Below are positions 9,395 to 64,000 of a DNA stretch of 64,000 nt, in pieces (within the stretch, counting starts at the first letter, position 1; each line of letters starts with the position of its first letter). The position numbers and the translations under genes were made by a program. Under the pieces are notes generated by a model, which did not search any database, was not told where the DNA came from, and saw only the letters and a program-made list of their open reading frames with translations. This stretch comes from Firmicutes bacterium FC7 (GTDB lineage: Bacteria; Bacillota; Clostridia; Tissierellales; Tissierellaceae), in contig JAKELU010000002.1 in the NCBI GenBank assembly GCA_022760735.1, positions 1 through 64,000 on the forward strand. Reading direction: 5' to 3'.

Positions 9395-9420
9395 TAATAC
9401 AACCAATTACTGGTTGTATT
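9395..9420 (-). terminator. Hairpin between nrfA and resB
   Basis: A perfect 10-bp stem (AATACAACCA / TGGTTGTATT) followed on the minus strand by a T/A-rich run. It probably lowers read-through from the abundant nrfA message into resBC. Confidence 0.55.
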
Positions 9421-9442
9421 ATTTCCACAATATAACTATTTT

Positions 9443-47563: not shown

Positions 47564-47723
47564 TTTGTTACCTCCTTTAGATTAAGCCTTATAAATCGTC
47601 TACAACCATATTCTATCTTAATTATATCCTACCATATTTAGCATGTTTAATTTAATAAGCATTCTTTTTTTATTGACTGAATAGCTTATAAGGAGTTAAT
47701 TTTTCTTTAGAAGGGGGATTTAT

Positions 47724-49067: not shown

Positions 49068-49088
49068 TCTAAAAATGATTAGCCTTTA
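49061..49088. terminator. Bidirectional terminator between agcS and the PgpA-like gene
   Basis: Perfect 9-bp stem AGGCTAATC / GATTAGCCT with a 7-nt loop, overlapping the last codons of both convergent genes. Confidence 0.85.
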
Positions 49089-49601
49089 TACTTCACTAGT
49101 ATGGGCAATTCTACTTGCTGCCGCTGCAGCTATGGCAGCTACTAAGTCATCTAAAAATGTATTACATTCAACGCCTTTTTTAGAATCCAGCTCCTTAATA
49201 ATCCCTATTTTTTCTTTATCTAAGAATCCGTAGTTTGTTAATCCAATGGTGCCATAAACATTAACGATTGATAATGGAATAATCTCATCAATTCCATACA
49301 GACCTTCATCTGTTTCAACAATTGTCTGAAGAGGCTCAGGTAGCATCCTCATTTCTGCCAGTTCATCTAGGGCTATTCCAGTTAAAATTGCATGTATTAT
49401 CTCTCTTTTACTAAGTACAGCATCAATACTTTCTAAACATTTTTCCAAGGTTAAACTAGGATAATATCTACCCTGCAAATATAGTACGATTTCTCCTATA
49501 TCCTCTAGTTTAACGCCTCTTCTTTCAAGCATTTCGATGGTTATCTTCTTTAAATCTTCCATTTTATATCTATCACTATATTTATTTGCTGGACTACTCA
49601 T
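49086..49601 (-). CDS. Phosphatidylglycerophosphatase A-like protein (YutG type)
   Basis: 171 aa. 'MLERRGVKLEDIGEIVLYLQ' begins the soluble YutG/PgpA-like domain. The conserved acidic block 'CNTFLDDLVAAIAAAAASRI' closes it, and 'IVNVYGTIGLTNYGFLDK' lies between. Unlike E. coli PgpA it has no clear membrane segments. Members dephosphorylate phosphatidylglycerol phosphate or related substrates. Confidence 0.8.
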   Translation of the reverse strand: MSSPANKYSDRYKMEDLKKITIEMLERRGVKLEDIGEIVLYLQGRYYPSLTLEKCLESIDAVLSKREIIHAILTGIALDELAEMRMLPEPLQTIVETDEGLYGIDEIIPLSIVNVYGTIGLTNYGFLDKEKIGIIKELDSKKGVECNTFLDDLVAAIAAAAASRIAHTSEV

Positions 49602-49688
49602 TTTATCCCTCCAATAGGTAAAAATATCTACTATTAGTATATACTACCCAATAATCTTAAATCTTGACATACAATAAAGTCGTAAACC

Positions 49689-49717
49689 TTGATTTTTTTT
49701 TAACTATACTATATAAT
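49689..49717 (+). promoter_or_regulatory. Promoter of the FMN-binding lipoprotein gene
   Basis: TTGATT and TATAAT with a 17-bp spacer, 41 bases before the start codon. Confidence 0.75.
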
Positions 49718-49757
49718 AATTAAATGTAGATATCAATTAAGGAAAGGAGTTAGTAAA

Positions 49758-50096
49758 ATGAAGAAGACTTTATCATTAGCTTTGATATTAGTACTTATAG
49801 CAACTACTTTAGTAGGATGTGGCGGCGGTGCTAAATACACTGACGGTACATATCAAGGCGAAGCTCAAGGTATGGCACCTTTAAAAGTTGAAGTTGAAGT
49901 TAAAGAAGGTAAAATTGCTAGAGTTGAAGTTATAGAACATGACGAAACTGAAGGAATTTCAGATCCAGCTTTAGAACAAATTCCATCATTAATCGTTGAA
50001 AAAAACTCAACAGATGTTGACTCAGTTTCAGGTGCTACTGTAACAAGTAACGCTATTAAAGAAGCTGTAAACAATGCTTTAGAAAACGCAAAATAA
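49758..50096 (+). CDS. Small FMN-binding lipoprotein, probably covalently flavinylated
   Basis: 112 aa. The signal ends with lipobox 'LVGC' (Cys21). The rest is a single FMN_bind domain: 'YTDGTYQGEAQGMAPLKVEV', then 'VDSVSGATVTSNAIKEAVNN' near 89-108. The Thr of 'SGAT' is the site to which ApbE attaches FMN through a phosphodiester bond, and an ApbE gene is at 56049. It would act as a one-flavin electron carrier on the outer face of the membrane. Own promoter and terminator, so a single-gene unit. Confidence 0.92.
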   Translation: MKKTLSLALILVLIATTLVGCGGGAKYTDGTYQGEAQGMAPLKVEVEVKEGKIARVEVIEHDETEGISDPALEQIPSLIVEKNSTDVDSVSGATVTSNAIKEAVNNALENAK

Positions 50097-50114
50097 TTAA
50101 GTTTTAATAAAAAT

Positions 50115-50145
50115 AAACCCCCTCAATTATGAGGGGGTTTTATTG
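50115..50145. terminator. Terminator after the FMN lipoprotein gene, overlapping tatC end
   Basis: The 10-bp stem AAACCCCCTC / GAGGGGGTTT, then T-rich sequence. It covers the tatC stop codon and serves both convergent genes. Confidence 0.9.
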
Positions 50146-50873
50146 TTCTTATTTTTAATCAATGAAGATAATATAATTCCTATTTCAAATAGTATTAGCA
50201 TCGGTATACCAAGTAGTATTTGTGATATTACATCAGGCGGTGTTAATATTGCTGCAATTATAAATATAACTAGAACAAAAACCTTTCTATTCTTTTTTAG
50301 AAAGCTAATTTGAACTAAATTAAATTTAGTTAATAATACCATAACTATAGGTAACTCAAATATAGCTCCAAAGGCTAATAATGTATTTATAACAAAATCT
50401 AAATAGTTTCTAAAACTTATCATTGCCTGAACTTCATCTATTTGAAATCCAATGAAGAAAACTATCATTGTTGGTAATACTATAAAATATGAAAAAATTA
50501 CTCCTATAATAAAAAATAAGCTTCCAGTAATTAAGGAAACTGATATGTATTTCCTCTCCATATTATTTAACCCTGGGCTAACGAATAACCATAGTTGAAT
50601 TAATAAAAAAGGTGCTGCAATGACTAATCCTCCAACTACAGATATTTTAATATAGGACATTAGTAGCTCTGCAGGAGCAATAAACACAAAGTTTACATCA
50701 GGAACTATATTTATTATGTCCCTTACTACTGTCTCTGCAAAATTATATGTTAAAATTACTGCAACTATAAAAACAAAAGCACAATTTATTAGCCGCTTCC
50801 TTAACTCTGCTAGATGTCCTACAATGGTTAGCTCTTTTTTATCTCTATTTTCATTATGCTTCCTCTTTATCAT
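50127..50873 (-). CDS. tatC: Twin-arginine translocase subunit TatC
   Basis: Receptor of the Tat pathway that exports folded, often cofactor-bearing proteins. About 248 aa with six membrane helices. Signature: 'IVGHLAELRKRLINCAFVFI' at the N-terminus, 'APAELLMSYIKISVVGGLVI' and 'FVSPGLNNMERKYI'. The start is placed at the second of two near-adjacent ATG codons, nine bases after TTAAGG; the first ATG (50882) is also possible. It overlaps the end of tatA, so the pair is co-translated. Confidence 0.95.
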   Translation of the reverse strand: MIKRKHNENRDKKELTIVGHLAELRKRLINCAFVFIVAVILTYNFAETVVRDIINIVPDVNFVFIAPAELLMSYIKISVVGGLVIAAPFLLIQLWLFVSPGLNNMERKYISVSLITGSLFFIIGVIFSYFIVLPTMIVFFIGFQIDEVQAMISFRNYLDFVINTLLAFGAIFELPIVMVLLTKFNLVQISFLKKNRKVFVLVIFIIAAILTPPDVISQILLGIPMLILFEIGIILSSLIKNKNNKTPS

Positions 50874-51045
50874 CAGAGTCATCCTTAACTACATTATCTT
50901 TATTGTCGCTTCCATTTACGCTACTCTTAAATTCATGTATAGCTTTACCTAAGGCTTTACCAACGCCTGGAAGCTTAGATGGTCCAAATACTACTAGAGC
51001 AATTGCAAGTATCAAAACAAGCTCCATAGGTCCTAATCTGCTCAT
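50854..51045 (-). CDS. tatA: Twin-arginine translocase subunit TatA
   Basis: 63 aa. One short membrane helix 'MELVLILAIALVVFGPSKLP' with the FGP hinge, an amphipathic helix 'GVGKALGKAIHEFKSSV' and an acidic tail. It forms the Tat pore with TatC. AAGGAGG lies upstream. No Tat substrate with a clear twin-arginine signal is encoded in the window. Confidence 0.96.
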   Translation of the reverse strand: MSRLGPMELVLILAIALVVFGPSKLPGVGKALGKAIHEFKSSVNGSDNKDNVVKDDSDDKEEA

Positions 51046-51135
51046 TTATTTACCTCCTTACACTTATTGATGTACATATTTATATTAACACTTCGTTAAG
51101 ATTTTTACAATAAAATTGTTTTATTATATAAGGAA

Positions 51136-51159
51136 AAACGAGGAGCTCTCTCCTCGTTT
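51136..51159 (-). terminator. Terminator of the sugar ABC transporter operon
   Basis: Perfect 10-bp stem AAACGAGGAG / CTCCTCGTTT with a 4-nt loop, followed on the minus strand by TTTTCC. It overlaps the last codon of the permease gene. Confidence 0.85.
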
Positions 51160-52369
51160 AACCTTTTTTACGTCTTGTTAGTATGTCAAATAGTACCGCA
51201 ACAACTAAGATTGTTCCTCTTATAATGTACTGCCAAGATATGTCTATTCCCATTAGATTCATTCCGCTCGTTAATGATGCCATTACCAATGCACCTATGA
51301 TGGATCCCGTTACCTTTCCAACCCCCCCCGAAGTTGAAACACCACCTACATAAGCTGCTGCTATAGCATCTAATTCAAAACCAACACCGGCAGTAGTTGT
51401 TGCTGATTGAAGACGTGATGTATATAGTATACCAGCTAAAGCTGATAACATACTCATAGAAGCAAATACTATATAAGTGATCTTAGTTACATTTATACCA
51501 CTTAATTTAGCTGCCTCAGGGTTACCACCTACAGCATATATATGTCTTCCTAAAACAGTTTTAGTTGTTATGAAATGGTAAACTGCTGTTACAACTATAA
51601 CAATTACAACTGTCCAAGAAAGTCCATTATATCTTGCAAGCATCCATATTAGATATCCAATCAATAAAGAAACGAAAATTAACTTTGATATAAACATTGG
51701 CATAGATATTACTTCAAAATTGTATTTTTCCTTATTTTTTCTATTTCTTAATTCAGCTAATATATAAAAAATAATCCCAATAGCCCCTATTAACAATGTT
51801 ACTGAATGATACCCTGGAATTAAATCAATGTCCGGTATGAATCCATTACCTATAGCATTAAAGCTAGCATTTGGAATAATTATGGTTCCAGTCTTCTGTG
51901 TAGCAAGCATTAATGCTCCTCTAAACACAAGCATTCCTGCTAAAGAAACAACGAAAGCTGGCATGCCTACTTTACCAACAAGAAAACCATAAAATAATCC
52001 TATTAGAACACCAATTAATAAAATTATGATAATGCTAGGTAGTACAGGAAGTTTCATTGATGTCATAAGAATTGCTACAACTGCTCCTAGAAAACCAGCA
52101 ACATAACCTACAGACAAATCAATATGTCTAATTATTAGAATTAAAGTCATTCCTATTGTTAAAACTGCTATATACCCTGTAGAGTTTATAAGATTTGTAA
52201 TATTTCTAGGAGATAGGAATGTTCCATCTGTCAATATAGAAAATGTGATCATTATTACAAATAATGCAATGAACATTCCATATTCTCTAATATTTTTTGT
52301 TAGTAAGCCTTTAAACTCTTCAAAATAATTGACTAATGCCCCTTTATTTCTTTCACTAGTAGAATTCAT
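51158..52369 (-). CDS. Monosaccharide ABC transporter permease (GguB/MmsB type)
   Basis: 403 aa with about 11 membrane helices, longer than RbsC (about 320 aa) and matching the GguB/XylH branch. 'IRHIDLSVGYVAGFLGAVVA' is the conserved cytoplasmic loop region and 'RHIYAVGGNPEAAKLSGINV' the ATPase contact loop. 'AYVGGVSTSGGVGKVTGSII' is the late family signature. Last gene of a three-gene ABC operon and followed by a terminator. Confidence 0.94.
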   Translation of the reverse strand: MNSTSERNKGALVNYFEEFKGLLTKNIREYGMFIALFVIMITFSILTDGTFLSPRNITNLINSTGYIAVLTIGMTLILIIRHIDLSVGYVAGFLGAVVAILMTSMKLPVLPSIIIILLIGVLIGLFYGFLVGKVGMPAFVVSLAGMLVFRGALMLATQKTGTIIIPNASFNAIGNGFIPDIDLIPGYHSVTLLIGAIGIIFYILAELRNRKNKEKYNFEVISMPMFISKLIFVSLLIGYLIWMLARYNGLSWTVVIVIVVTAVYHFITTKTVLGRHIYAVGGNPEAAKLSGINVTKITYIVFASMSMLSALAGILYTSRLQSATTTAGVGFELDAIAAAYVGGVSTSGGVGKVTGSIIGALVMASLTSGMNLMGIDISWQYIIRGTILVVAVLFDILTRRKKG

Positions 52370-52397
52370 ATTATTCCTCCTCGCTAAGTATATCTTT

Positions 52398-53927
52398 TTA
52401 TAGTGCCATTTCCATGATTATATCCTGTGTTGCATCTTTTGCATTTAATTCTCCAGTAATCTTTCCATCAGCCATTACATATATACGGTCACTCATCCCT
52501 AGTACTTCTGGTAATTCTGACGAAATCATGATTATACTTAGCCCTTCTTCAATAAGTTTGTTCATAATTGAATAAATTTCGTATTTTGCCCCAACATCTA
52601 TACCTCTAGTTGGTTCGTCTAATATTAAAATATCTGGTTGAGTAAATAACCATTTAGCAACTGAAACTTTTTGTTGATTTCCACCACTTAGGTTGTTTAG
52701 TAGCTGTTCAATATTTGGCGCTTTTATAGTTAAATCTTCCTTATATTTATTTGCTACGTTAACCTCTTCATTTTCATTTATTACACCATTATTTGAAAGA
52801 GATTTAATATTTCCTATAGTAATATTGTTCTTTATATCCTGTATAAGAATTAAACCTTCTTTTTTTCTATCTTCAGATACATAAGCTATACCACTTTTAA
52901 TTGCATCGCTTGTATGTTTAAAGTTTTTAACCTCACCTTTAACTATAAGCTCTCCACTAAGTTTATAGCCTCTAGGATTTCCAAATATACTTGTTGCAAA
53001 CTCAGTCCTACCAGCACCCATTAGCCCAGCTAATGCAACTACCTCGCCTTTTCTTACCTTGAAATTAACATCCTTCAACAAATATCTACCTAATTCATTT
53101 GAATAAGCAGACCAATTTTTAACCTCTAATACTACTTCTCCAAACTCCTTCTTTTCTCTCTTTGGATAAATATCGTTTATTTCTCTTCCTACCATGTTTT
53201 TTATCAATATAGGTTCACTTATTTCACCCTTAGACGCATCAAGAGAACAAATAGTCTGACCATCTCTTAAAACTGTTACAGTGTCTGCGATTGATATGAC
53301 TTCCTTCAATTTATGGGAAATCATAATTGAGGTAATGCCCTCTTTCTTTAATTCCTTTAAAAGATCTAGTAAGTTAGCAGAATCGTCTTCATTTAAAGCT
53401 GCTGTTGGTTCATCTAAAATTAACAATTTTACATCTTTACTAAATGCCTTAGCTATCTCTACAAGTTGTTGCCTTCCAACGCCTAAATTCTTTACTTTAG
53501 TTGTTGGAGGTATATCTAGCCTTACCTTATCTAATAATTTCTTAGATTGTACTATAGTTTCATTCCAATCAACTGTAAAACCTTTTTTAATCTCATGTCC
53601 TAAAAAGATATTTTCAAAAACAGTCATTTCAGGAACAAGTGCTAATTCCTGATAGATTATAGCTATACCAGCTTTTTCACTATCCGCAATCCCCTTAAAT
53701 TTCTGAACTTCACCATTTAAGACAATATCACCACTATATTCACCATATGGATATACCCCTGACAAGACCTTCATCAGTGTTGACTTACCAGCACCATTCT
53801 CTCCTACAAGACAATGGATTTCCCCACGCTTTACTTTAAAATTAACATTATCAAGAGCCTTTACGCCTGGGAATTCTTTAGTTATATTTCTCATTTCCAA
53901 TATATAGTCTGATTCATACGTAGTCAT
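52398..53927 (-). CDS. Monosaccharide ABC transporter ATP-binding protein (GguA/MmsA type)
   Basis: 509 aa with two fused ABC domains. First: Walker A 'LVGENGAGKSTLMKVLSGVY' near 42, signature 'LGVGRQQLVEIAKA', Walker B 'LLILDEPTAAL'. Second: degenerate Walker A 'LAGLMGAGRTEFATSIFG' near 295, signature 'LSGGNQQKVSVAKWL', Walker B 'ILILDEPTRGIDVGAKYEI'. The degenerate second site is usual for this sugar family. Adjacent permease and binding protein complete the uptake system. Confidence 0.95.
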   Translation of the reverse strand: MTTYESDYILEMRNITKEFPGVKALDNVNFKVKRGEIHCLVGENGAGKSTLMKVLSGVYPYGEYSGDIVLNGEVQKFKGIADSEKAGIAIIYQELALVPEMTVFENIFLGHEIKKGFTVDWNETIVQSKKLLDKVRLDIPPTTKVKNLGVGRQQLVEIAKAFSKDVKLLILDEPTAALNEDDSANLLDLLKELKKEGITSIMISHKLKEVISIADTVTVLRDGQTICSLDASKGEISEPILIKNMVGREINDIYPKREKKEFGEVVLEVKNWSAYSNELGRYLLKDVNFKVRKGEVVALAGLMGAGRTEFATSIFGNPRGYKLSGELIVKGEVKNFKHTSDAIKSGIAYVSEDRKKEGLILIQDIKNNITIGNIKSLSNNGVINENEEVNVANKYKEDLTIKAPNIEQLLNNLSGGNQQKVSVAKWLFTQPDILILDEPTRGIDVGAKYEIYSIMNKLIEEGLSIIMISSELPEVLGMSDRIYVMADGKITGELNAKDATQDIIMEMAL

Positions 53928-53984
53928 AAGCGTATACTCCTCTTATAAAATATTTCCCATGAGTCTGGATATCTTAAATAATTT

Positions 53985-54022
53985 GAAAATAGTGATAGCC
54001 AGATAAGGCTCTCACTATTTTC
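53985..54022 (-). terminator. Intercistronic hairpin after the sugar-binding protein gene
   Basis: The 11-bp stem GAAAATAGTGA / TCACTATTTTC. Such hairpins after the binding protein gene commonly stabilise its message and reduce read-through into the ATPase gene, giving excess binding protein. Confidence 0.7.
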
Positions 54023-54036
54023 AAAACAATAAGGAA

Positions 54037-55212
54037 CTAATTTAGATTTGTGAATTCAGATGCATCATAGTAACCAGAATCAATTAATGCAGACTTAACA
54101 TTAGATTGTTCTACTACTATTACTTCTGTTTGTTTAGCAGGAACATCTATAGCCTTGTTGTTATATGATCCTGTTGTTTCAGGAGTCTTACCTTCTAATA
54201 TAGAAACAGCCATATCAATTGAATCCTTAACTAATGTACGAACATCCTTGAATACTGTCATTGTTTGCTTTCCATCTATTATATATTGAATTGAAGCTTT
54301 TTCAGCATCTTGACCAGTGATTACATATGAAGTAACATCTGGGTCTGCTGCAAATGTATCAGCTATTGATCTAGCAGTACCATCATTTGGAGCTAGTATA
54401 AATACATCACCTTTGTCTTCTTTTGATGCTGCAGTTAAGTGAGCTTCTGCTTTATTCTTAGCTTCATTGAAATCCCAGTTAGTTGTTACTTGACCTATGA
54501 TTTTACTCATTTCATCTCTAGTTAAAGTAGCCTTATCTTGTAATGCTACAGCTTCACTTGAGTTCTTGATTACAAACGTACCATCTGCAATCTTTGGCTG
54601 TAATACGTTCCAAGCTCCTTCGAAGAATAAGAATGCATTGTTATCTGATGCTGCTCCAGCATATAGATATAATGGATTTCCTTTTCCTTCTGCTTTGTCA
54701 ATTAAATATTGACCTTGAGCTTCTCCAACCGCAACGCTGTCAAATGTTACATAATAATCAACCGCATCTGTTCCAGTGATTAATCTGTCATAAGCAATAA
54801 CAGTTATACCTTCAGCCTTTGCTGCTTCAGCTGCTGCAGCTGCTGCATCCCCATCATGTGGGCATATAATAAGTACTTTTATACCCTTAGTTATTAAAGA
54901 TTCAACGTTTTGCTTTTCATTAGCTGATGAACCTTGGCTGAATAGAACTTCTACTGAATAATCAGTATCCTTTAGAGCTTCATTGAATCTTGTTTCATCT
55001 TGTATCCATCTTGGTTCGTCTTTTGTTGGTAATACAATACCTACATCTACTGTACCACTGCTGCTACCACCGCTAGTACTGCTTTCGTTACTGCTACTAC
55101 CGTTGTTGCTTCCACCATTAGTTGAAGTTTGTGATGAGCAACCTACTAGAGTAGCAAATACCAATGATAGAATACATACGAAAACGATTGCTTTCATATT
55201 ACGTCTTTTCAT
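54037..55212 (-). CDS. ChvE-like monosaccharide-binding lipoprotein
   Basis: 391 aa. Signal ending in lipobox 'LVGC' (near Cys25), then a Ser/Asn/Gly linker at 29-50. The periplasmic-binding domain begins 'VDVGIVLPTKDEPRWIQDET' and has 'LIICPHDGDAAAAAAEAAKA', 'VIAYDRLITGTDAVDYYVTF' and 'YVITGQDAEKASIQYIIDGK'. This is the ChvE/XylF pattern for galactose, arabinose, xylose or glucose. It is first in the operon behind a strong promoter with a cre-like operator. Confidence 0.94.
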   Translation of the reverse strand: MKRRNMKAIVFVCILSLVFATLVGCSSQTSTNGGSNNGSSSNESSTSGGSSSGTVDVGIVLPTKDEPRWIQDETRFNEALKDTDYSVEVLFSQGSSANEKQNVESLITKGIKVLIICPHDGDAAAAAAEAAKAEGITVIAYDRLITGTDAVDYYVTFDSVAVGEAQGQYLIDKAEGKGNPLYLYAGAASDNNAFLFFEGAWNVLQPKIADGTFVIKNSSEAVALQDKATLTRDEMSKIIGQVTTNWDFNEAKNKAEAHLTAASKEDKGDVFILAPNDGTARSIADTFAADPDVTSYVITGQDAEKASIQYIIDGKQTMTVFKDVRTLVKDSIDMAVSILEGKTPETTGSYNNKAIDVPAKQTEVIVVEQSNVKSALIDSGYYDASEFTNLN

Positions 55213-55256
55213 AAATACCCCTCCTAATTATTTACTTTACTGATGCTAAAACATTG

Positions 55257-55270
55257 TACAAGCGTTTGCT
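55257..55270. promoter_or_regulatory. cre-like operator at the start of the sugar transporter transcript
   Basis: TACAAGCGTTTGCT matches 12 of 14 positions of the catabolite-responsive element consensus TGWAARCGYTWNCW. It lies just downstream of the -10, at the expected transcription start, where a bound CcpA or LacI-type repressor would block initiation. Confidence 0.65.
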
Positions 55271-55277
55271 CATTTTA

Positions 55278-55306
55278 ATTATAAAGGTTCAGCTATATAT
55301 AGTCAA
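55278..55306 (-). promoter_or_regulatory. Promoter of the sugar ABC transporter operon
   Basis: TTGACT and TATAAT with a 17-bp spacer on the minus strand, about 66 bases before the binding protein start. The remaining 55307-55497 holds nothing I can support. Confidence 0.85.
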
Positions 55307-55497
55307 GTATAATTAGAAACTATAAAGTCTTTTATTTATACTTATTAAATTAATAAGCTACCTTATTTCCTCCTTATTTAGCATTTAATCGACATAAATA
55401 TACATTTTCCGCAAATGCAGGTAATACTCTATCTCTATAATATATGCAATCAAATATAGAAAAAGGACATATTGCATCATCTACAATATATCCTTTG

Positions 55498-55992
55498 TTA
55501 ATTTACTGTTTTATGTCTTTTACTTAGATATCTAGCTCTTTTAATAGTAATTCCAATGCCTATTAATAGAGTAGGTATAAAACAGGCTATTAGCCTTACA
55601 AGTTGATTAAATTTAATATCCAATAAAAAGCTTATTTGATACATTGGATTAATATAAATATTTAGTGGAATTAAATGTATGATTAGGTTATCATCTGAGA
55701 CATCAAGGGTAAATCCAGTCTTTATTAAACTATATGCCCAGAGTATTAGACCAATAAATCCAATAATTAATCCCATACTAAAATCATATTTGCTTTTGTG
55801 TCTTATATCCAATCTTGTGCCTATTGCCACATAGCTACCTGCCCAGATTATAGCAAGGATTATTCTAACAACTGGATTTGTGATAGCATCTCCAATATAA
55901 GGACCTAGTACAACTATTAGTATAAGATATATGGTTGAGATTATTATTAATAGAATATGATATAATAATGCAATTATATTGTCTTTTATCAT
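55498..55992 (-). CDS. Hypothetical four-helix membrane protein, 164 aa
   Basis: Family not recognised. Four hydrophobic segments ('LLYHILLIIISTIYLILIVV', 'VVRIILAIIWAGSYVAIG', 'FSMGLIIGFIGLILWAYSLI', 'LVRLIACFIPTLLIGIGITI') and a short basic C-terminus. The start is the ATG giving 'MIKDNIIAL', six bases after GGAGG. It follows apbE by 56 bases on the same strand and may be co-transcribed with it. Confidence 0.7.
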   Translation of the reverse strand: MIKDNIIALLYHILLIIISTIYLILIVVLGPYIGDAITNPVVRIILAIIWAGSYVAIGTRLDIRHKSKYDFSMGLIIGFIGLILWAYSLIKTGFTLDVSDDNLIIHLIPLNIYINPMYQISFLLDIKFNQLVRLIACFIPTLLIGIGITIKRARYLSKRHKTVN

Positions 55993-56048
55993 ACTCAACC
56001 TCCGATCTATTATATACTAATAAAAGGTTTATTCATAAGTTGTACAAT

Positions 56049-57143
56049 TTATTCTGCTTTTGCTCCAGTTGCACCATAAGATTTCATAATTTTTTTCATT
56101 CCTTCAGTAGCCTCTACTGTACCGTCCTTTAAAACCCATAGACCTTCGACACTTTCAAAGGATTCAACTAAAGCCTTGCTATCCTCAAAAGGCATTAAAA
56201 ATGCTGAAGTTGATAAAAAGTCTGCAAGCCCTGAATCAGGGGTAACAATTGTAACTGCTCTATAGTATTCACCTGGCATTAGTGTATCAGGATCTATTAA
56301 ATGATGAATTACCTTATTTCCTACCATATAAAATCTCTGATAATCACCGCTAGTTACTACCGAGGCATCATTAATAAATACAGTTTCTATAAGGCTGTCC
56401 GCTGTATTGTCAACAAAGCTGTCAGGATTTTGGATTCCTACACCCCATCTTTCTCTTATTCCATCAAGTGGTTTCCCAATAGTTCTAATATTTCCACCTG
56501 CACTTATAATTGCAGATTTAAGTCCAGCTTTTTCAACCTCCTTAGCTACTATTTCAGTTGCAAAACCTTTAGCAACAGCACCTACATCAATTCTCATTTC
56601 AGGATCCTCTAGGAAAACCGTACTATTTTCAACGTCTACAATTACCTTATTTATATCCGTATGTTCATTTGCCTCAAGTAGATCCTCCATAGGTGGTATT
56701 TTTGCATTTTCTGGGTCTGTTTCTGCTTCGTCTCTATATTGTGACCAAATTTCTAAAACTGCACCCATTGCTATATTAGTTTTTCCTCCGGTTTCTTCAT
56801 AAAAATCTTTACACAACTGAATTAAATCAATTATCTCCTTTTCAACCTTTACAGGTTGAATACCTGCGTTATCATTTATGGTCTTAATGTTATTTATACC
56901 TTCATAATTGTTATATTTATCAAAGAGTTTGTGTAGTTCTAACATTCTCTCATAAATCATATTCGCATATTCTTTAAACTCTTCCTCAGTTTTTGTATAT
57001 CCTACAATCTGAATTATTGTATCAAATGTACCAAAATATGTTTCTGAAAATTTGTCATACTGAGTTTTTCCACCTGTTGTACAACCTGTTAACATACTCA
57101 TTATAATCATTACTATTAATATAGTAGAAATTCCTTTTTTCAT
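56049..57143 (-). CDS. apbE: ApbE-type FAD:protein FMN transferase, lipoprotein
   Basis: Transfers FMN from FAD to a Ser/Thr of exported flavoproteins. 364 aa. Signal with lipobox 'LTGC'. Motifs: 'DVGAVAKGFATEIVAKEVEK' near 184-203, 'SAIISAGGNIRTIGKPLDG', 'GVGIQNP', 'VTSGDYQRFYMVGNKVIHHL' and the metal-binding 'VTPDSGLADFLSTSAFLM'. Start chosen at the ATG giving 'MKKGISTIL', eight bases after AAGGG. A small FMN_bind lipoprotein (49758) is a clear substrate and two tandem lipoproteins just upstream are possible substrates. Confidence 0.95.
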   Translation of the reverse strand: MKKGISTILIVMIIMSMLTGCTTGGKTQYDKFSETYFGTFDTIIQIVGYTKTEEEFKEYANMIYERMLELHKLFDKYNNYEGINNIKTINDNAGIQPVKVEKEIIDLIQLCKDFYEETGGKTNIAMGAVLEIWSQYRDEAETDPENAKIPPMEDLLEANEHTDINKVIVDVENSTVFLEDPEMRIDVGAVAKGFATEIVAKEVEKAGLKSAIISAGGNIRTIGKPLDGIRERWGVGIQNPDSFVDNTADSLIETVFINDASVVTSGDYQRFYMVGNKVIHHLIDPDTLMPGEYYRAVTIVTPDSGLADFLSTSAFLMPFEDSKALVESFESVEGLWVLKDGTVEATEGMKKIMKSYGATGAKAE

Positions 57144-57213
57144 TGTCATCACCCTTAATTATCATAACAAAATTGTGTTAAATAATCAACAAACTATTGT
57201 GTCCATAAATAGA

Positions 57214-57236
57214 AAAACTCCCAAAACGGGAGTTTT
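57214..57236 (-). terminator. Terminator of lipoprotein paralogue 1
   Basis: AAAACTCCC / GGGAGTTTT with a five-nt loop, then T-rich on the minus strand. Nearly the same hairpin follows the second paralogue at 58468, evidence that the whole cassette was duplicated. Confidence 0.85.
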
Positions 57237-57265
57237 CATATTTGTTACATATTAATAAATCAAAA

Positions 57266-58348
57266 TTATTTTGCGTTATCTATAGCTTCTGCTACTATTG
57301 CTTGATATGCATCTATTGAAACTGTTACTGATGAAGCCAACTCTGCATCATCTGCTTTACCATCTTTAAGTGGTAATCCTGTTATCTCATCTTTAGTCTT
57401 TCCAACCATCCATTCTCCTAATGCATTAGCTTGTTCGTACCATTCTTTACCTATAGATGATGCTTTTACCATTCCATATTCTTCTTTTAATTCTTGCTTA
57501 GTTTTGAATTCACCAGCTTTATCAGTTGCTACTTTACCTTCTAGATCGTAGTCAATTTTAACTTGGGCTACGTCTATAATTGCAGCTACTACTTTACCTT
57601 CTGCATCAACAGCAGTTGCTGTCATGTTAACATCAGCTTGTGCAGTAGCACCTTTTTCAGTAGTTGCATCTTTGGATTTAGCTATGCTAGTTAGAACACC
57701 TAAACCTACTTTTTCAGCACCTGGTGCATCTACTGCATTTTCCCACGCTTCTTCTACAGCAGCTATATAGCTTTCAACTGTAATTGTAACTGATGAAGTT
57801 AATTCTGGTACATCAGGTACATGAGTATGGCTTGCATCTCTTTCTTTAACCTTTAATCCTTTAATTTCTTCAACTGTTTTACCAATCATCCACTCTTCAA
57901 AAGCAGCTGCTTGTTCAAACCACTCTTTACCTATGGATGATGCTTTTACCATTCCATACTCTGGTCCTAAATCCACCTTTGTTTTAACTTCAGCTTCTTT
58001 ATCAGAAGTTACAACCATGTTTTCATCAAATGCTACTTTAGGTTGAACTACATCTAATGTAACGCTAACTACTTTACCTTCTTCATCAAAACCTACAGCT
58101 GCCATTGTTACATCTGCTTGAGCAGTTGCATTTTTCTCATCAGTTTTGTCTGATGATTTAGCAATTGAAATGTTTTGACCTAAACCAACTTTTGCAATCT
58201 TTCCAGCTTCTGCTGCAGGTGTTTCTGCTGGAGTCTCAGCTGGTGTTTCAACTGGTGCTGGTTCAGGTGTTTTAGTTCCTTGTGTACATCCAACAAGGGA
58301 TGCTCCTACTAATGTTGCTGCTAACATTGTTGATAGTAATTTCTTCAT
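57266..58348 (-). CDS. Two-repeat exported lipoprotein, paralogue 1 (FMN_bind-like)
   Basis: 360 aa. Lipobox 'LVGC' (Cys21), then a Pro/Glu/Thr linker at 28-48, then two repeats of about 150 aa (near 50-205 and 215-360). Each repeat runs 'VGLG...SIAKS', 'TAQADV', 'EGKVV', 'EYGMVKASSIGKEW', 'WMIGKT' or 'WMVGKT', and ends 'SSVT' plus a helix. The layout (beta sheet, then an ELxSSVT segment, then a closing helix) echoes FMN_bind domains, in which DxVSGAT receives FMN. ApbE is the next gene downstream. Family assignment is inference; the duplication is plain. Confidence 0.8.
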   Translation of the reverse strand: MKKLLSTMLAATLVGASLVGCTQGTKTPEPAPVETPAETPAETPAAEAGKIAKVGLGQNISIAKSSDKTDEKNATAQADVTMAAVGFDEEGKVVSVTLDVVQPKVAFDENMVVTSDKEAEVKTKVDLGPEYGMVKASSIGKEWFEQAAAFEEWMIGKTVEEIKGLKVKERDASHTHVPDVPELTSSVTITVESYIAAVEEAWENAVDAPGAEKVGLGVLTSIAKSKDATTEKGATAQADVNMTATAVDAEGKVVAAIIDVAQVKIDYDLEGKVATDKAGEFKTKQELKEEYGMVKASSIGKEWYEQANALGEWMVGKTKDEITGLPLKDGKADDAELASSVTVSIDAYQAIVAEAIDNAK

Positions 58349-58394
58349 TTGATACCCTCCATATGAAATTTATTATCTTATATGTAACAAAGTT

Positions 58395-58423
58395 ATTATA
58401 GCATGTTCGATTATTTTCGACAA
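58395..58423 (-). promoter_or_regulatory. Promoter of lipoprotein paralogue 1
   Basis: TTGTCG and TATAAT with a 17-bp spacer on the minus strand. The second cassette has the same arrangement and near-identical flanks (GGTATTGTC, ATGCTATAAT). Confidence 0.85.
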
Positions 58424-58467
58424 TACCTTTATTAAAATCGATCATTTATAGCTGTTTTAGAAAATAG

Positions 58468-58492
58468 AAAAACTCCCTAGACGGGAGTTTTT
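58468..58492 (-). terminator. Terminator of lipoprotein paralogue 2
   Basis: The 10-bp stem AAAAACTCCC / GGGAGTTTTT with a five-nt loop. Copy of the hairpin at 57214. Confidence 0.85.
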
Positions 58493-58563
58493 CATATGTT
58501 ACATATTTTAGGTATCAGAAGAAATTACTTAGTAATTTCCTGATTGTCTCGTTATAACTTTGA

Positions 58564-59676
58564 TTATCTAGCGTTGTCGATAGCTTCTGCTACAACTGCT
58601 TGATATCCTTCAACTGTAATTGTTACACTTGAAGCTAATTCTGGAACATCTGGAACATGTTTGTGGTTAGCATCTCTTTCTTTAACAGCTAATCCAGTTA
58701 TTTCATCTTTAGTCTTTCCAACCATCCATTCTTGGAATGCATTCATTTGCTCATACCATTCTTTTCCTATTGCTGATGCTGGTTTCATACCATATTCTTC
58801 TTTTAGTTCATGTTTAGTTTTGAATTCTCCAGCTTTATCAGTTGCTACTTTACCTTCTGCATCGTAAGCAATCTTAACTTGAGCTACGTCAACTATAGTT
58901 GCAACAACTTTACCTTCTGCATCAATAGCAGTTGCTGTCATATAAGTATCTGCTTGAGCAGTTGCTGGTTTTTCAGCAGTTGCATCTTTTGAGCTTCCAA
59001 TAGTTGTCTTAACACCTAAACCTACTTTTTCAGCACCTGGTGCATCTACTGCTTTTTCCCATGCTTCTTCTACAGCAGCTATATAGCTTTCAACTGTAAT
59101 TGTAACTGATGAAGCTAATTCTGGAACATCAGGTACATGTTTGTGGTTAGCATCTCTTTCTTTAACTTTTAATCCTTTAATTTCTTCAACTGTCTTACCA
59201 ATCATCCACTCTTCAAAAGCAGCTGCTTGTTCATACCATTCTTTACCTATTGCTGATGCAGGCTTCATACCATATTCTTCTTTTAAATCTTTCTTTGATT
59301 TAACTTCAGCTTCTCTGTCAGAAGTTACAACCATGTTTTCATCAAATGCGATTTTAGCTTGAGTTACATCTAATGTAACGCTAACTACTTTACCTTCTGC
59401 ATCAAATCCTACAGCTGCCATTGTTACATCTGCTTGAGCAGTTGCGTTTTTCTCATCAGTTTTGTCTGATGATTTAGCAATTGAAATATTTTGTCCTAAA
59501 CCAACTTTTGCAATCTTTCCAGCTTCTGCAGCAGGTGTTTCTGCTGGAGTCTCAGCTGGTGTTTCCGCAGGTGTCTCAGCTGGAGCTGGTTCAGGCGTAG
59601 TTGTTTGTTGTGTACATCCAATTAGGGATGCTGCTACTAACATTACCGCTAACATTAATGATAATATCTTCTTCAT
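58564..59676 (-). CDS. Two-repeat exported lipoprotein, paralogue 2 (FMN_bind-like)
   Basis: 370 aa, very close to paralogue 1 over its whole length. Lipobox 'LIGC', a linker with four 'PAET' repeats, and the same two domains. Here both domains carry the segment 'KERDANHKHVPDVPELASSV', which paralogue 1 keeps only in its first domain, so the two copies have diverged by loss in paralogue 1 or by gene conversion in paralogue 2. The start is the ATG giving 'MKKILSLML' with GGAGGG upstream; the longer frame covers the ribosome binding site. Confidence 0.8.
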   Translation of the reverse strand: MKKILSLMLAVMLVAASLIGCTQQTTTPEPAPAETPAETPAETPAETPAAEAGKIAKVGLGQNISIAKSSDKTDEKNATAQADVTMAAVGFDAEGKVVSVTLDVTQAKIAFDENMVVTSDREAEVKSKKDLKEEYGMKPASAIGKEWYEQAAAFEEWMIGKTVEEIKGLKVKERDANHKHVPDVPELASSVTITVESYIAAVEEAWEKAVDAPGAEKVGLGVKTTIGSSKDATAEKPATAQADTYMTATAIDAEGKVVATIVDVAQVKIAYDAEGKVATDKAGEFKTKHELKEEYGMKPASAIGKEWYEQMNAFQEWMVGKTKDEITGLAVKERDANHKHVPDVPELASSVTITVEGYQAVVAEAIDNAR

Positions 59677-59720
59677 TTCATACCCTCCATAATTCATATT
59701 CTTATCTATGAAACAAAGTA

Positions 59721-59749
59721 ATTATAGCATATTGACTAAAATTAGACAA
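59721..59749 (-). promoter_or_regulatory. Promoter of lipoprotein paralogue 2
   Basis: TTGTCT and TATAAT with a 17-bp spacer on the minus strand, about 45 bases before the start codon. Confidence 0.85.
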
Positions 59750-59809
59750 TACCTTTGTGAATATTTTGTTAATGAATTGTTAATAATATGTAATTTGGGG
59801 TAAATAAAA

Positions 59810-59830
59810 GAGATAGCCTGTAGCTATCTC
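59810..59830 (-). terminator. Terminator of the AI-2E-like gene
   Basis: Perfect stem GAGATAGC / GCTATCTC with a five-nt loop, then TTTTATTT on the minus strand. It overlaps the last codons of the gene. Confidence 0.85.
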
Positions 59831-60294
59831 CTATCCCTAGCTTTTACAATTGAGTTTATTACTACTGCAATTAATGGCCCGAGCATAAGCCCTATTGGAC
59901 CAAATATTAGCGCACCTATTACAGTTGTCAGAAATGTATACAAAGGCCTTATTCCTATCTGATCTCCCAGTACCTTCGGCTCTATAAACTGCTTAAGTAT
60001 TGTAAGTACAACATAGAGTATCAAAATGCCTACCCCCGTCTCTTTATTCCCAAACAAGTAGGATACTATACCCCATGGTATCATTACAATGCCTGCTCCT
60101 ATGAATGGTAGGATGTCAATTACTGATATAAAAATGGCTATTAAGATTGGTGTTGGTGTTTGAATTACAGTCAAACCAACAGTTAGAATAATAAATACGA
60201 TGCCTAATATAATAACTCTCGATTTTAAATATCCCTTTATTCCTCTGAATGAATCTATAAGAATGGCTTTTATAACTTCTAATATATTATCCAT
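59824..60294 (-). CDS. Short AI-2E-family membrane protein (C-terminal half only)
   Basis: 156 aa. It matches the second half of AI-2E/YtvI transporters: 'IAIFISVIDILPFIGAGIVM', 'IPWGIVSYLFG', 'LTILKQFIEPKVLGDQIGI' and 'PIGLMLGPLIAVVINSIV'. Full family members have about 350 aa. A good TAGGAGG lies seven bases before the ATG, so it is translated as a short protein. Either a truncated gene that gained or kept a start, or a genuinely short member. Confidence 0.8.
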   Translation of the reverse strand: MDNILEVIKAILIDSFRGIKGYLKSRVIILGIVFIILTVGLTVIQTPTPILIAIFISVIDILPFIGAGIVMIPWGIVSYLFGNKETGVGILILYVVLTILKQFIEPKVLGDQIGIRPLYTFLTTVIGALIFGPIGLMLGPLIAVVINSIVKARDRR

Positions 60295-60466
60295 ATAGCC
60301 TCCTATATAATTGGCAGATTCATGTTCCGTTACCTTAAATTAATATTTATTATTTAACAATATCTAAATTATTTATTGATTTATATGTTAAATTTTAATC
60401 TTATTTATAGAATTTTTAGATTAAAATCAAAAAAATTTTCTATAAATTTATGAGCTTAATACTTTT

Positions 60467-61978
60467 TTAATCTTGCTTATATCTTTTTAAATCTCGTTTA
60501 CTACGCCATCTTTTATACCATTCTGTTTGCACTAGTAACGAAAATATGATTATTGATAATAAGAACATCGATAATGGACTAGTGAAAATTCCACCAATAA
60601 ACTTCAAAATAGACCCAGCAGAAATTACAGATCTTCTGTAGTTTGTCTCTATTATGTCTGCTAAAATTATTCCAAGAACCATAGGACCAACTGGATAATC
60701 ATATTGTTTAAATAAATATCCTATTATACCAAAGGCAACCATCCAAAATACATCATATAGATTATTATTAACTGCATAAGAGCCAACTACTGATAACATA
60801 ATAATAATTGGAAGTAGTCTTCCTTTTGGAATTTCTATCAACTTAGTAAATACCTTAATACCAGTCAGTCCAAATATTAACAGAAATATATTTGATAATG
60901 CTAAAGAGCTCACAATTAGATAAAATAAATGTGGTGTTTCCACCATCAACATAGGTCCTGGATGTAATCCATGAATGAATAAGGCTCCTAACATTACAGC
61001 TGTTACGGAATCGCCAGGAATCCCCATTGTTAGCATTGGTATAAATGCTCCACCTATTGCAGCATTGTTGGCTGACTCAGGAGCAACAACTCCTTCAACT
61101 GCACCTTCACCAAATGGTACTTCTGGATTTTTAACTGTTCTTTTAGCTTGATCATAAGTTAATAAAGCTGCAATATCTCCCCCTGCACCTGGTAATGCTC
61201 CAACAATAACACCAACTATAGATGAACGTATAGTCAACGGTAAGTACTTTTTGATTGAAGAAAATGAAGGTACTATTCTATCAGCTTTTTGCTTTACTGG
61301 CTCAATACTTAAATCTTTGATTTGAACCAAAGCTTCTGAAACACCAAATAATCCAATCATTGCTGTTACATAATCTATGCCAGATAGTAAATAAGTATTA
61401 CCAAATGTAAATCTATGTTGGGCACTAATTGGATCCATACCAACAGTTCCTAATAAAACACCCATTGCTGCTGTAACCAATCCTCTAGAAATAGACTTAG
61501 AACCTAAACTACCTACAAGCATCATTCCCATAAACGATAATAATAAATAGTCTCTAGGTGCAAATTTTAAAGCTACTTTAGTCACAACTGGAGCAAAAAA
61601 TGCCAAAGCAATAACACCAATTATTCCACCAAATACTGATTGTACAGTAGCAATACCTATCGCCTCTCCTGCTAATCCTTTTTTGGCTAATGGATATCCA
61701 TCAAATGAAGTTGCAACTGCTGCTGGTGCTCCTGGTATATTCAATAAAATTGCGGATCTTGAGCCTCCGTATACTACACCTGAAAAAATACCAATCATTA
61801 ATACAATTGCTGGATTAGTTTCCCACCCAAATGTAAAAGGCACAAGTAACGAGACAGCCATTGTACCAGACAAGCCTGGTATAGCACCTATATATATTCC
61901 AGCAAATACGCCAATAGCAACTAATACAATTAGTAATGGTTGTTGAAATGGTAAGAATAAATAAGCTAATCCGTTCAT
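60467..61978 (-). CDS. tctA: Tripartite tricarboxylate transporter, large membrane subunit TctA
   Basis: 503 aa with about 11-12 membrane helices. Signature stretches: 'IPGLSGTMAVSLLVPFTF', 'VVYGGSRSAILLNIPGAPAA', 'GYPLAKKGLAGEAIG', 'GALPGAGGDIAALLTYDQAK' and 'MLTMGIPGDSVTAVMLGALF'. TctA and TctB form the carrier that receives substrate from the TctC binding protein. Citrate is the classic substrate, but the family also takes other carboxylates, so the substrate is open. Confidence 0.96.
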   Translation of the reverse strand: MNGLAYLFLPFQQPLLIVLVAIGVFAGIYIGAIPGLSGTMAVSLLVPFTFGWETNPAIVLMIGIFSGVVYGGSRSAILLNIPGAPAAVATSFDGYPLAKKGLAGEAIGIATVQSVFGGIIGVIALAFFAPVVTKVALKFAPRDYLLLSFMGMMLVGSLGSKSISRGLVTAAMGVLLGTVGMDPISAQHRFTFGNTYLLSGIDYVTAMIGLFGVSEALVQIKDLSIEPVKQKADRIVPSFSSIKKYLPLTIRSSIVGVIVGALPGAGGDIAALLTYDQAKRTVKNPEVPFGEGAVEGVVAPESANNAAIGGAFIPMLTMGIPGDSVTAVMLGALFIHGLHPGPMLMVETPHLFYLIVSSLALSNIFLLIFGLTGIKVFTKLIEIPKGRLLPIIIMLSVVGSYAVNNNLYDVFWMVAFGIIGYLFKQYDYPVGPMVLGIILADIIETNYRRSVISAGSILKFIGGIFTSPLSMFLLSIIIFSLLVQTEWYKRWRSKRDLKRYKQD

Positions 61979-61988
61979 TATGACCTCC

Positions 61989-62465
61989 TTATGGCAAAAT
62001 TACTTGAAATATTGTCTTAAATACTATAAGAATAAAGGCCATAGCTAATCCTGTATAAATTGCGTTCTTAATAATCTGACCCTTCATTAAATATGTCATC
62101 GATGTTATCAAAAAAATTGTTGATGAGAATTCAAAACCTAGGCCAAATACTAACATAAAGCAATATACGATTAAAAGTAAAAATACCATAACTATATCCT
62201 TATGTAATATATACCTTACGACAGAGTCAACTAAGTCTTTTAAATTGTATAGTTTTTTCACTTGATCCGATTTTTTATTTTCAAAGATTAATATTTTAAG
62301 CATAAAAATAACAACAATACTACTTAAAAATAATGGTAATGCCCCAAAAGATGAAGACGTAGGTTCTTTTTTAAACATCTTAACTGATTCAATTAGAGCC
62401 AATATTCCAATTATTAGAAGTATTGCAGAAAAACCTTTTTCGCTAGGTTTATGATTTTCTGACAT
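61989..62465 (-). CDS. tctB: Tripartite tricarboxylate transporter, small membrane subunit TctB
   Basis: 158 aa with four membrane helices, the normal TctB layout. 'FGALPLFLSSIVVIFMLKIL' is the usual second-helix region and 'LGFEFSSTIFLITSMTYLMK' the fourth. It is 10 bases upstream of tctA and downstream of tctC beyond a hairpin. Confidence 0.9.
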   Translation of the reverse strand: MSENHKPSEKGFSAILLIIGILALIESVKMFKKEPTSSSFGALPLFLSSIVVIFMLKILIFENKKSDQVKKLYNLKDLVDSVVRYILHKDIVMVFLLLIVYCFMLVFGLGFEFSSTIFLITSMTYLMKGQIIKNAIYTGLAMAFILIVFKTIFQVILP

Positions 62466-62520
62466 ATCTTCACCCCCTATGTTAAATAAGTATTCCTAGA
62501 ACATTTAACCATTAATTATT

Positions 62521-62563
62521 TGATTAAGGAGCTACGCCTAAAAGGACAGTTGCTCCTTGATTA
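62521..62563 (-). terminator. Intercistronic hairpin between tctC and tctB
   Basis: The 12-bp stem TGATTAAGGAGC / GCTCCTTGATTA (one G-T pair) with a 19-nt loop and no strong T-run. Likely raises tctC message over tctBA. Confidence 0.65.
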
Positions 62564-62569
62564 TTTTAA

Positions 62570-63583
62570 CTATTTTATACCTAATTCCTCAGGTGATTTA
62601 TCTATGGCTCCACTCTTGTAGAATGCATCAGCAGTATTCCTTTTCCAATCTAAAAGATATGCTTTTGCTTCTTCACCAGTCAAGCCTAATGGAGTAACGT
62701 TAAATCCCCTTAATAATTCTTGATAGCTCTCGTCTTTGAATGCTTCTATAAAGGCATTAGATAAAACATCTATTGCTTCTAGTGAAGTACCGTCTTTTAC
62801 GAAGATACCATAAAATGGGCCCCAAGGTAAATATTCTTTAAACTCTGGGTACTCTTCAATTACTAATGGTACTTCTGGCAATACATCTACCTCTTCTAAT
62901 GATAATAGTGTTAAGAATTTAATTTCTCCAGCCTTATATGACTGTATCGCAGATTGTACCTTGGCCACAGTAAAATCAGCATGACCCCCTAATACAGCAG
63001 TTAAACAAGCTGCATCACTATCAAAAGGTATTTGTTTGAATGTAGCACCTGTTATTGCTTTTATGAAAGAACTTACTGACCATGGCATGCCACCAGTACC
63101 TGTTGTTGTCATACTTATGGTACCTGGATTAGCTAATGCATCTTCAATTAACTCAGTAAAAGAATTGTATTTGGAGTCCTTGCCAACAATAATTCCAACT
63201 TTTTCATCACCAATTATAAACACTGGTTCAAAGTCTTCATAAGTAAGCTCTGATATACCCAGCATTGAATATAACTGTGGGTTCTCTGCACCCATAAGCA
63301 AAGTGTATCCATCAGCATCTTGTTCATATACATATTGAGTAGCAATGGCACCTGTTGCACCAGGTTTATTCTGAATTACTATACTTTTTCCTAGAATCTT
63401 TTCAGCTAATGAAGACAAAGGTCTCATTAAAGAATCCGTACCACCACCTGCTCCCCATTGAACAATTCCTGTAATATCACGTGCAGGAAATATGGATTCT
63501 GAATTATTTTCTTTATTATCACAGCCTATTAAAACTGTTACTGTCATGCATAAAACTAACAGTAATGATATAAGTCTTTTCAT
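62570..63583 (-). CDS. tctC: Tripartite tricarboxylate transporter, substrate-binding lipoprotein TctC
   Basis: 337 aa. Lipobox 'LIGC' (Cys21). The TctC fold opens 'FPARDITGIVQWGAGGGTDS' near residue 32, then 'KSIVIQNKPGATGAIATQYV' and 'TTTGTGGMPWSVSSFIKAIT'. In Gram-positives such proteins are lipid-anchored. First gene of the tct operon, transcribed leftward. Confidence 0.95.
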   Translation of the reverse strand: MKRLISLLLVLCMTVTVLIGCDNKENNSESIFPARDITGIVQWGAGGGTDSLMRPLSSLAEKILGKSIVIQNKPGATGAIATQYVYEQDADGYTLLMGAENPQLYSMLGISELTYEDFEPVFIIGDEKVGIIVGKDSKYNSFTELIEDALANPGTISMTTTGTGGMPWSVSSFIKAITGATFKQIPFDSDAACLTAVLGGHADFTVAKVQSAIQSYKAGEIKFLTLLSLEEVDVLPEVPLVIEEYPEFKEYLPWGPFYGIFVKDGTSLEAIDVLSNAFIEAFKDESYQELLRGFNVTPLGLTGEEAKAYLLDWKRNTADAFYKSGAIDKSPEELGIK

Positions 63584-63643
63584 TTTTACCCCCTAAGATT
63601 GCTTTTTGTATTTAATCTTACATTTTTCATAATCATATCATTT

Positions 63644-63672
63644 ATTATAACTTCTGCCTTTTTTAAAGTCCA
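63644..63672 (-). promoter_or_regulatory. Likely promoter of the tct operon
   Basis: TGGACT and a perfect TATAAT at 17-bp spacing on the minus strand, about 60 bases before tctC. The -35 is weak. Confidence 0.5.
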
Positions 63673-63704
63673 ATTAAATAATATTAGTATACCCAAAAAT
63701 AATA

Positions 63705-63728
63705 GAGACTCACTTAGTGCTGAGTCTC
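63705..63728 (-). terminator. Terminator of the flagellar gene
   Basis: Perfect 8-bp stem GAGACTCA / TGAGTCTC with an 8-nt loop, followed on the minus strand by a T-rich run. Confidence 0.8.
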
Positions 63729-63738
63729 ATAAAAGCAA

Positions 63739-64000
63739 TTATCGTTTTATACCATTAATAATATTCATCATTTCATCTGTAGTTTGAACAGCTTTTAAGC
63801 TTAGTGAATATGCTCTTTGGGTTGTTATCATTTCAACTATATTTTTAGTGATATCAGCATTTGACGCCTCAAGGAAATATTGATGTATTTCACCAAAGAT
63901 CTCTTCATTTTCAAGGGAATCATACAACTGAACTTCTCCAGCTGGTAAGTATCTGCCTTCACCTAAGGATATAAGTGAATCCAGATTTTCTGGATAAAAT
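63739..64000 (-). CDS. Flagellar basal-body rod/hook protein, C-terminal part (FlgG/FlgF type)
   Basis: The gene runs off the right edge; 87 codons are visible and the frame is open to the window end. 'FLEASNADITKNIVEMITTQ' and 'RAYSLSLKAVQTTDEMM' are the conserved C-terminal helix of FlgG/FlgF/FlgE-type axial proteins. Upstream, 'GEGRYLPAGEVQLYDS' fits the region before it. Shows that the organism is, or was, flagellated. FlgG versus FlgF cannot be decided from this part. Confidence 0.9.
   Translation of the reverse strand, partial: FYPENLDSLISLGEGRYLPAGEVQLYDSLENEEIFGEIHQYFLEASNADITKNIVEMITTQRAYSLSLKAVQTTDEMMNIINGIKR

Follow-up and report, generated by a model that had tools for sequence, protein, structure and literature searches.

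A divergent branch of FMN_bind/PplA-like lipoproteins beside apbE, with a noncanonical candidate site for flavin attachment

In the genome of Firmicutes bacterium FC7, a member of the Tissierellaceae, the first 64,000 nucleotides of contig JAKELU010000002.1 (assembly GCA_022760735.1; this whole stretch is called here the window) contain two lipoprotein genes in tandem followed by apbE, the gene of a flavin transferase, all three lying on the minus strand between positions 59697 and 56049. The most satisfactory explanation, which we consider probable, is that the lipoproteins consist of diverged tandem domains of an FMN-bind2-like (PplA-like) kind, which would be flavinylated at a noncanonical Thr or Ser by the adjacent ApbE and would relay electrons outside the membrane. 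The original prediction had spoken of a possible new class of flavinylated proteins: What stands of it is a divergent branch of FMN_bind/PplA proteins having a noncanonical acceptor motif, while the term new class overstates the case. The novelty lies in this motif and in a family that has no name, since the system of flavinylated lipoproteins is known already.

As predicted, every domain of the two lipoproteins contains the motif E-L-[AT]-S-S-V-T, in the form of ELTSSVT and ELASSVT in one copy and of ELASSVT twice in the other. In an alignment of 81 proteins with both their domains, equivalent to 162 sites, the motif generalizes for both domains to [DE]-[LIM]-x-[SAT]-x-V-[TS], followed by I, V, or M. 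The first residue is D or E and the last is T or S in 162/162 sites, with V in sixth position in 159/162; position 5 is occupied by S, L, T, K, or R, and neither position 4 nor position 5 is limited to hydroxyl residues. The canonical form D-x-x-[ST]-G-A-[ST] is found in 0/162 sites, the G and the A of positions 5 and 6 being absent throughout. T or S predominates in 33 columns of the alignment, but only six of these are strictly T/S, among them the acceptor column of each domain. Other residues conserved in the family are a K and the segments Y-G-M and G-K-E-W-x-E-Q. In proteins studied by mutation, the acceptor residue is essential for flavinylation, with a minor effect of the Asp (PMC12052999). 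The register with which the original prediction had laid the motif by eye onto D-x-V-S-G-A-T, the site of the canonical FMN_bind lipoprotein encoded at 49758-50096, was recovered independently of the eye: The family profile, run against all sequences of the PDB, found 2kzx at an E value of 3.4e-4, aligning D-L-x-S-S-V-T over D-A-I-S-G-A-T.

Judged from the sequences, the homology of these domains with FMN_bind/PplA proteins is established through intermediates. These occur in genomes of the class. For example, proteins encoded beside apbE have the sites D-A-I-A-G-V-T and D-A-V-A-G-V-T (L194, L195), while other intermediates have D-A-I-S-G-A-S and D-A-I-T-G-A-T (L257, L258) or D-V-V-S-G-A-T (L197). 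The domain profile matches eight intermediates, with AGVT, SGAS, or SGAT sites, at E values ranging from 4.5e-16 to 3.3e-5, the best shuffled sequence reaching 0.31. Two of these proteins, L195 and L257, match the domain profile (1.7e-7 and 1.7e-6), the FMN_bind model (28.5 and 24.8 bits, for a Pfam cut-off of 22 bits), and also the PplA model NF041941 (2.1e-16 and 1.8e-9, below its 325-bit cut-off). Sedimentibacter proteins encoded beside apbE (L042:5620-7983, L043, L044, L050) have a canonical FMN_bind domain, with the site D-V-I-A-G-A-T or E-V-I-S-G-A-T, fused to two or four divergent domains, and the same genome as the window encodes on contig C1 a 590-residue protein (L036:142-1911, minus strand) in which a canonical FMN_bind domain (D-V-I-A-G-A-T) is joined by two related large domains, with the sites D-V-T-S-T-A-T and D-V-T-S-A-A-T. 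Once aligned, the last Thr of the family motif corresponds to the FMN attachment position of FMN_bind/PplA-type proteins.

The predicted fold agrees with this homology. AlphaFold2, run with 69 sequences, gave a mean predicted local distance difference test (pLDDT) of 96.9 and a predicted template modeling score (pTM) of 0.93 for the domain pair, and of 96.0 and 0.89 for the single domain. Compared by VIA-align, the single domain had its best match in 3o6u, an FMN-bind structure described as flavinylated (PMC11334425), with Z 8.0 and a root mean square deviation of 3.1 Å over 105 residues; the pair matched best 2kzx (Z 8.0) and 3o6u (Z 7.5). Hence, the fold unrelated to FMN_bind that would have spoken against the original prediction was searched for and not encountered. 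IscU-like chains were considered as fold relatives and discarded, their Z values of 5-6 being taken to reflect common arrangements.

Several observations weigh against this interpretation and need to be set out together. As read from the sequences, the site differs from the canonical form by a double change, of G to S/L/T/K and of A to V, while the published tests cover single changes alone: Replacing G by A, or A by V, left about half of the flavinylation in either case (PMC12052999). Neither lipoprotein has a direct match to Pfam FMN_bind (PF04205) at the gathering cut-off, and hhalign of the domains against alignments of canonical FMN-bind1 and FMN-bind2 was not significant; its best local alignment with the FMN-bind1 set, equally below significance, fell on the motif in the predicted register for both domains. 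Foldseek returned no match below E 0.001 for either the pair or the single domain, and a Z of 8 is moderate, within the range of what common arrangements may produce. Because of these two results, the structural evidence is supporting rather than decisive, and the sequence evidence is the stronger. Furthermore, 13 of the 79 loci discussed below have no ApbE within reach, ApbEs of the type neighboring the family occur also in genomes devoid of the lipoprotein (L150, L151, L249-L251, L253), and the single ApbE of the FC7 genome must serve canonical sites too.

The main rival explanation is built upon the first of these points. The lipoproteins could descend from FMN_bind domains and no longer be covalently flavinylated, now binding flavin or another ligand noncovalently, or serving ApbE as scaffold or docking partner, with the conserved Thr in another role. 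The double departure from the G-A core is in line with such a loss, and the conserved K, Y-G-M, and G-K-E-W-x-E-Q suggest a rebuilt pocket. Yet a lost acceptor should drift, and the strict conservation of T/S, with exchange between the two residues as at canonical acceptors, argues against it; moreover, the residue lies in coil four residues before the last helix, so that by position it is not a helix N-cap, and the intermediates retain the same Thr together with the link to apbE. We therefore regard the loss of covalent attachment as unlikely, while taking it more seriously than any other alternative.

How general is the association with apbE? Neither lipoprotein matches any Pfam or NCBIfam family, and a search of PDB sequences with the single window proteins found nothing. 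Scanning GTDB species genomes retrieved at least 305 relatives, of which the 79 closest were kept as loci and do not form a random sample; sequence counts, here and elsewhere, are not counts of independent events. The relatives among the matches listed belong to Tissierellia, Clostridia, Lachnospiraceae, Paenibacillus, Fermentithermobacillaceae, and others. We are dealing with a large family of Bacillota without a name, an offshoot of FMN_bind/PplA proteins. In 66/79 loci, spread over many genera, apbE is adjacent to the lipoprotein gene, almost invariably in the same orientation and immediately downstream; among the 13 remaining loci, three are paralogues in genomes having ApbE elsewhere and some lie near contig ends. 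Co-occurrence of the family with ApbE was assessed in another set of 216 genomes of the class: All genomes with a strong family match have ApbE (24/24), versus 162/216 overall (P 0.0006, uncorrected for kinship). A search of viral contigs and plasmids gave no viral relative, and a single Acetoanaerobium record, which is without gene annotation.

The ApbE enzymes encoded next to the family constitute a distinct subfamily. Aligning about 140 ApbE sequences shows that nearly all retain the catalytic Ser and Asp as well as the second His of H-H-[IL]-I, the first position of this motif being variable. Beside this His, the family-adjacent enzymes have a T-L (62), T-F (2), or T-M (1) loop, or A-L in a damaged sequence, where the others have T-G-[YF]-P, and a tree built without those columns separates the T-G-x-P ApbEs from the rest by one branch with a support of 100. 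The change to T-L-x-P is no strict switch of specificity, because such enzymes are found without the lipoprotein and the only ApbE of the FC7 genome serves all substrates there. We observed also that in L239 and L243 the lipoprotein gene is followed by a tandem of apbE genes, of which one is of T-L-x-P and the other of T-G-x-P type. In L094-L119, ApbEs with C-H-I-I, instead of H-H-I-I, pair with Ser acceptors (19/20; Thr sites 110/112), but this covariation between Cys/His and Ser/Thr was dropped as a proof, since on the tree the independent events behind it number only two or three.

The properties of this subfamily bear upon the two other alternatives. The site could be flavinylated weakly or partly, with the canonical proteins as the main flavin carriers and the lipoprotein acting mainly via another conserved surface, as the retention of about 50% after either single change (PMC12052999) might suggest; the fact that the neighboring ApbEs form a clade of their own, with a changed loop beside the catalytic His, is compatible instead with adaptation to the site, and we find this alternative improbable. 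Least credible of all, if by a small difference, is that adjacency to apbE reflects a shared regulon or operon history, ApbE serving RnfG, FMN_bind lipoproteins, and Ndh2 loops while the lipoprotein is an unrelated surface protein: One ApbE alongside five canonical FMN_bind matches in this genome, T-L-x-P enzymes without lipoprotein, and a possible alternative substrate in an Ndh2 loop (see below) can be cited in its favor, against the adjacency in 66/79 loci of varied operon content, the homology with FMN_bind/PplA established via intermediates, and the fusions to canonical FMN_bind.

Under the preferred explanation of noncanonical flavinylation, the domains of both lipoproteins would have changed so far that present family models no longer recognize them, and the adjacent ApbE would transfer FMN (flavin mononucleotide) from FAD (flavin adenine dinucleotide) to the last Thr or Ser of each site by a phosphoester bond. 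With one FMN per domain, each lipoprotein would carry two and the pair four. Of this picture, the analysis demonstrates the homology and the fold, the invariant hydroxyl, the conserved neighborhood of apbE, and the ApbE subfamily; flavinylation, its stoichiometry, and electron transfer are inferred. The enzyme would be partly specialized, as a member of the subfamily in which the T-G-x-P loop by the catalytic His has turned into T-L/F/M-x-P, and the flavinylated lipoprotein would relay electrons outside the membrane as PplA does, the donor in many Clostridia presumably being an Ndh2 dehydrogenase of the type found in extracellular electron transfer (EET), with a pool of demethylmenaquinone.

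In 15/79 loci, plus 4/5 further genomes inspected, the lipoprotein and apbE genes occur together with Ndh2 in EET-type operons, which hold most or all of the genes for polyprenyl diphosphate synthase, UbiA, NusG domain II, and heptaprenyl diphosphate synthase component I (PMC8906456 lists these components of flavin-based EET). Those loci of this kind that were inspected in full showed no PplA-like protein. In one such genome, the single-contig G049, the sole ApbE lies in the EET operon next to the family lipoprotein, and no match was found to FMN_bind, NqrB/RnfD, or Flavodoxin_4, with DUF2271, DUF3570, and FMN_red not searched there. The lipoprotein was initially a candidate for the only possible ApbE substrate of this organism, but it cannot be so designated, because of the domains not searched and because the Ndh2 loop contains E-G-T-S-G-A-T and E-A-V-S-S-A-T.

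Such loops deserve a description of their own. The EET-type Ndh2 proteins, of about 660-715 residues (15 loci within L096-L119, and L270-L273; e.g., L098:2980-4974, plus strand), contain one to five site repeats each in a loop that is rich in Ala and connects two membrane segments; [DE]-x-x-[STA]-[GSA]-A-[ST] occurs 34 times in 17 proteins, versus 1.2 (maximum 7) in shuffled loops. By the positive-inside rule the loop is probably extracytosolic, and its repeats are possible ApbE sites on the dehydrogenase itself; no published mention of Ndh2 flavinylation was found in a limited set of literature. One may go further and imagine the ApbE T-L/F/M clade and the [DE]-[LIM]-x-[SAT]-x-V-[TS] lipoproteins as a dedicated pair off the canonical code, which in EET operons, together with Ndh2-loop sites recognized by the same ApbEs, would form a fully covalent flavin path from dehydrogenase to cell surface, a tentative idea that we would rather bet against. 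In the window, neither Ndh2 nor menaquinone genes lie beside the lipoprotein pair. Elsewhere in it, judged by eye, genes at 9471-10736 and 7505-9428 on the minus strand appear to encode an NrfA-like multihaem cytochrome c nitrite reductase and ResB/CcsA-type cytochrome assembly proteins.

Among known systems, the closest is PplA of Listeria (NCBIfam NF041941), the flavinylated lipoprotein of EET, which is likewise a two-domain lipoprotein next to ApbE; in about 20 Clostridia, family members sit in operons of like content (Ndh2, polyprenyl synthase, UbiA), at the place that PplA takes in Listeria. However, the family domains are larger, their acceptor site lacks G-A, the window has no Ndh2 or demethylmenaquinone genes beside the pair, and its proteins have no direct match to the PplA model, which does match the family intermediates. 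With FMN-bind2 domains (about 160 residues, often paired; PMC11334425), compared by description only, the family shares domain length, even numbers (two, or four in L042), and long stretches that link strand 1 with strand 2, and strand 3 with the helices, but it never has the [ST]GA[ST]-like sites reported there. As in FMN_bind proper (PF04205, or FMN-bind1; 3o6u, 8p2a, 8p2b), of which 3o6u is the best structural match, the acceptor lies just before the last helix, whereas the motif is different and the family falls below Pfam detection. The substrates with DUF2271, DUF3570, Flavodoxin_4, and FMN_red domains were likewise found by apbE linkage and motif (PMC8238504; PMC11334425); by their descriptions, these are other domains, with [ST]GA[ST]-like motifs.

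Returning to the window, gene calls, repeat analysis, and a site scan bear out the two tandem cassettes of promoter, two-domain lipoprotein, and near-identical terminator that had been proposed before apbE (table 1). The lipoproteins have 83% identity in protein and 86% in DNA, with nonsynonymous and synonymous divergences (dN and dS) of 0.11 and 0.36 and a dN/dS of about 0.3, and each has a lipobox (LIGC or LVGC) and two repeats of approximately 160 residues. Repeat analysis recovered a core of approximately 300 nt four times, twice per lipoprotein gene, besides the repeated promoter block and terminator. Both promoter-like sites, of the predicted TTGTC-17-TATAAT form and in the predicted places, fall within a 68-nt block with 75% identity between cassettes; sites of this kind are overall at chance level in the region (24 found vs. 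24.6 expected), despite which these two are mutually homologous and correctly placed. Terminator-like sites exceed chance (10 vs. 2.0), and the two of the cassettes share a 30-nt block at 93% identity. Because one of them separates the second lipoprotein gene from apbE, the latter is probably not simply cotranscribed with the lipoproteins. Three other genomes of the genus have a single lipoprotein copy beside apbE, and the tandem duplication is therefore peculiar to this genome. No Rfam element was found in 47000-64000. The minus strand encodes at 59824-60294 a 156-residue protein resembling just the C-terminal part of an AI-2E-type transporter, with equal length in a congener (L007).

Table 1. 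Features of the lipoprotein-apbE locus, in window coordinates
Feature	Position	Strand	Remarks
Two-domain lipoprotein, first cassette	58564..59697	-	377 aa; AlphaFold2 model of residues 58-377, pLDDT 96.9
Two-domain lipoprotein, second cassette	57266..58348	-	360 aa
ApbE flavin transferase (lipoprotein), T-L-M-P loop variant	56049..57152	-	Pfam ApbE, 212 bits
Candidate acceptor site ELASSVT (T199), first lipoprotein, domain 1	59101..59121	-	Alignment and profile match to 2kzx
Candidate acceptor site ELASSVT (T359), first lipoprotein, domain 2	58621..58641	-	Alignment
Candidate acceptor site ELTSSVT (T188), second lipoprotein, domain 1	57785..57805	-	Alignment
Candidate acceptor site ELASSVT (T342), second lipoprotein, domain 2	57323..57343	-	Alignment
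Canonical D-S-V-S-G-A-T site, for comparison	50019..50039	+	In FMN_bind lipoprotein 49758-50096
ApbE segment HHLIDPDTLMP	56274..56306	-	Catalytic His, then T-L-x-P vs. T-G-x-P of other ApbEs
Promoter-like TTGTCT-17-TATAAT, first cassette	59721..59749	-	Consensus match only; extended -10; homologous to second-cassette site
Promoter-like TTGTCG-17-TATAAT, second cassette	58395..58423	-	Extended -10; in repeated block
Possible apbE promoter TTGATT-17-TATGAT	57161..57189	-	Consensus match only
Terminator-like hairpin 3' of first lipoprotein	58467..58493	-	Shares 30-nt block with second hairpin
Terminator-like hairpin between second lipoprotein and apbE	57213..57237	-	Shares 30-nt block with first hairpin

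The substrates of ApbE are usually sought via FMN_bind and the [ST]GA[ST] motif, and a family that has neither would escape such surveys; about 4% of genomes have ApbE but no known substrate (PMC8238504). If the flavinylation proposed here is true, the recognition rule of ApbE would be broader than stated and the tool box for flavin tagging wider, and many gut and soil Clostridia would have their EET lipoprotein identified.

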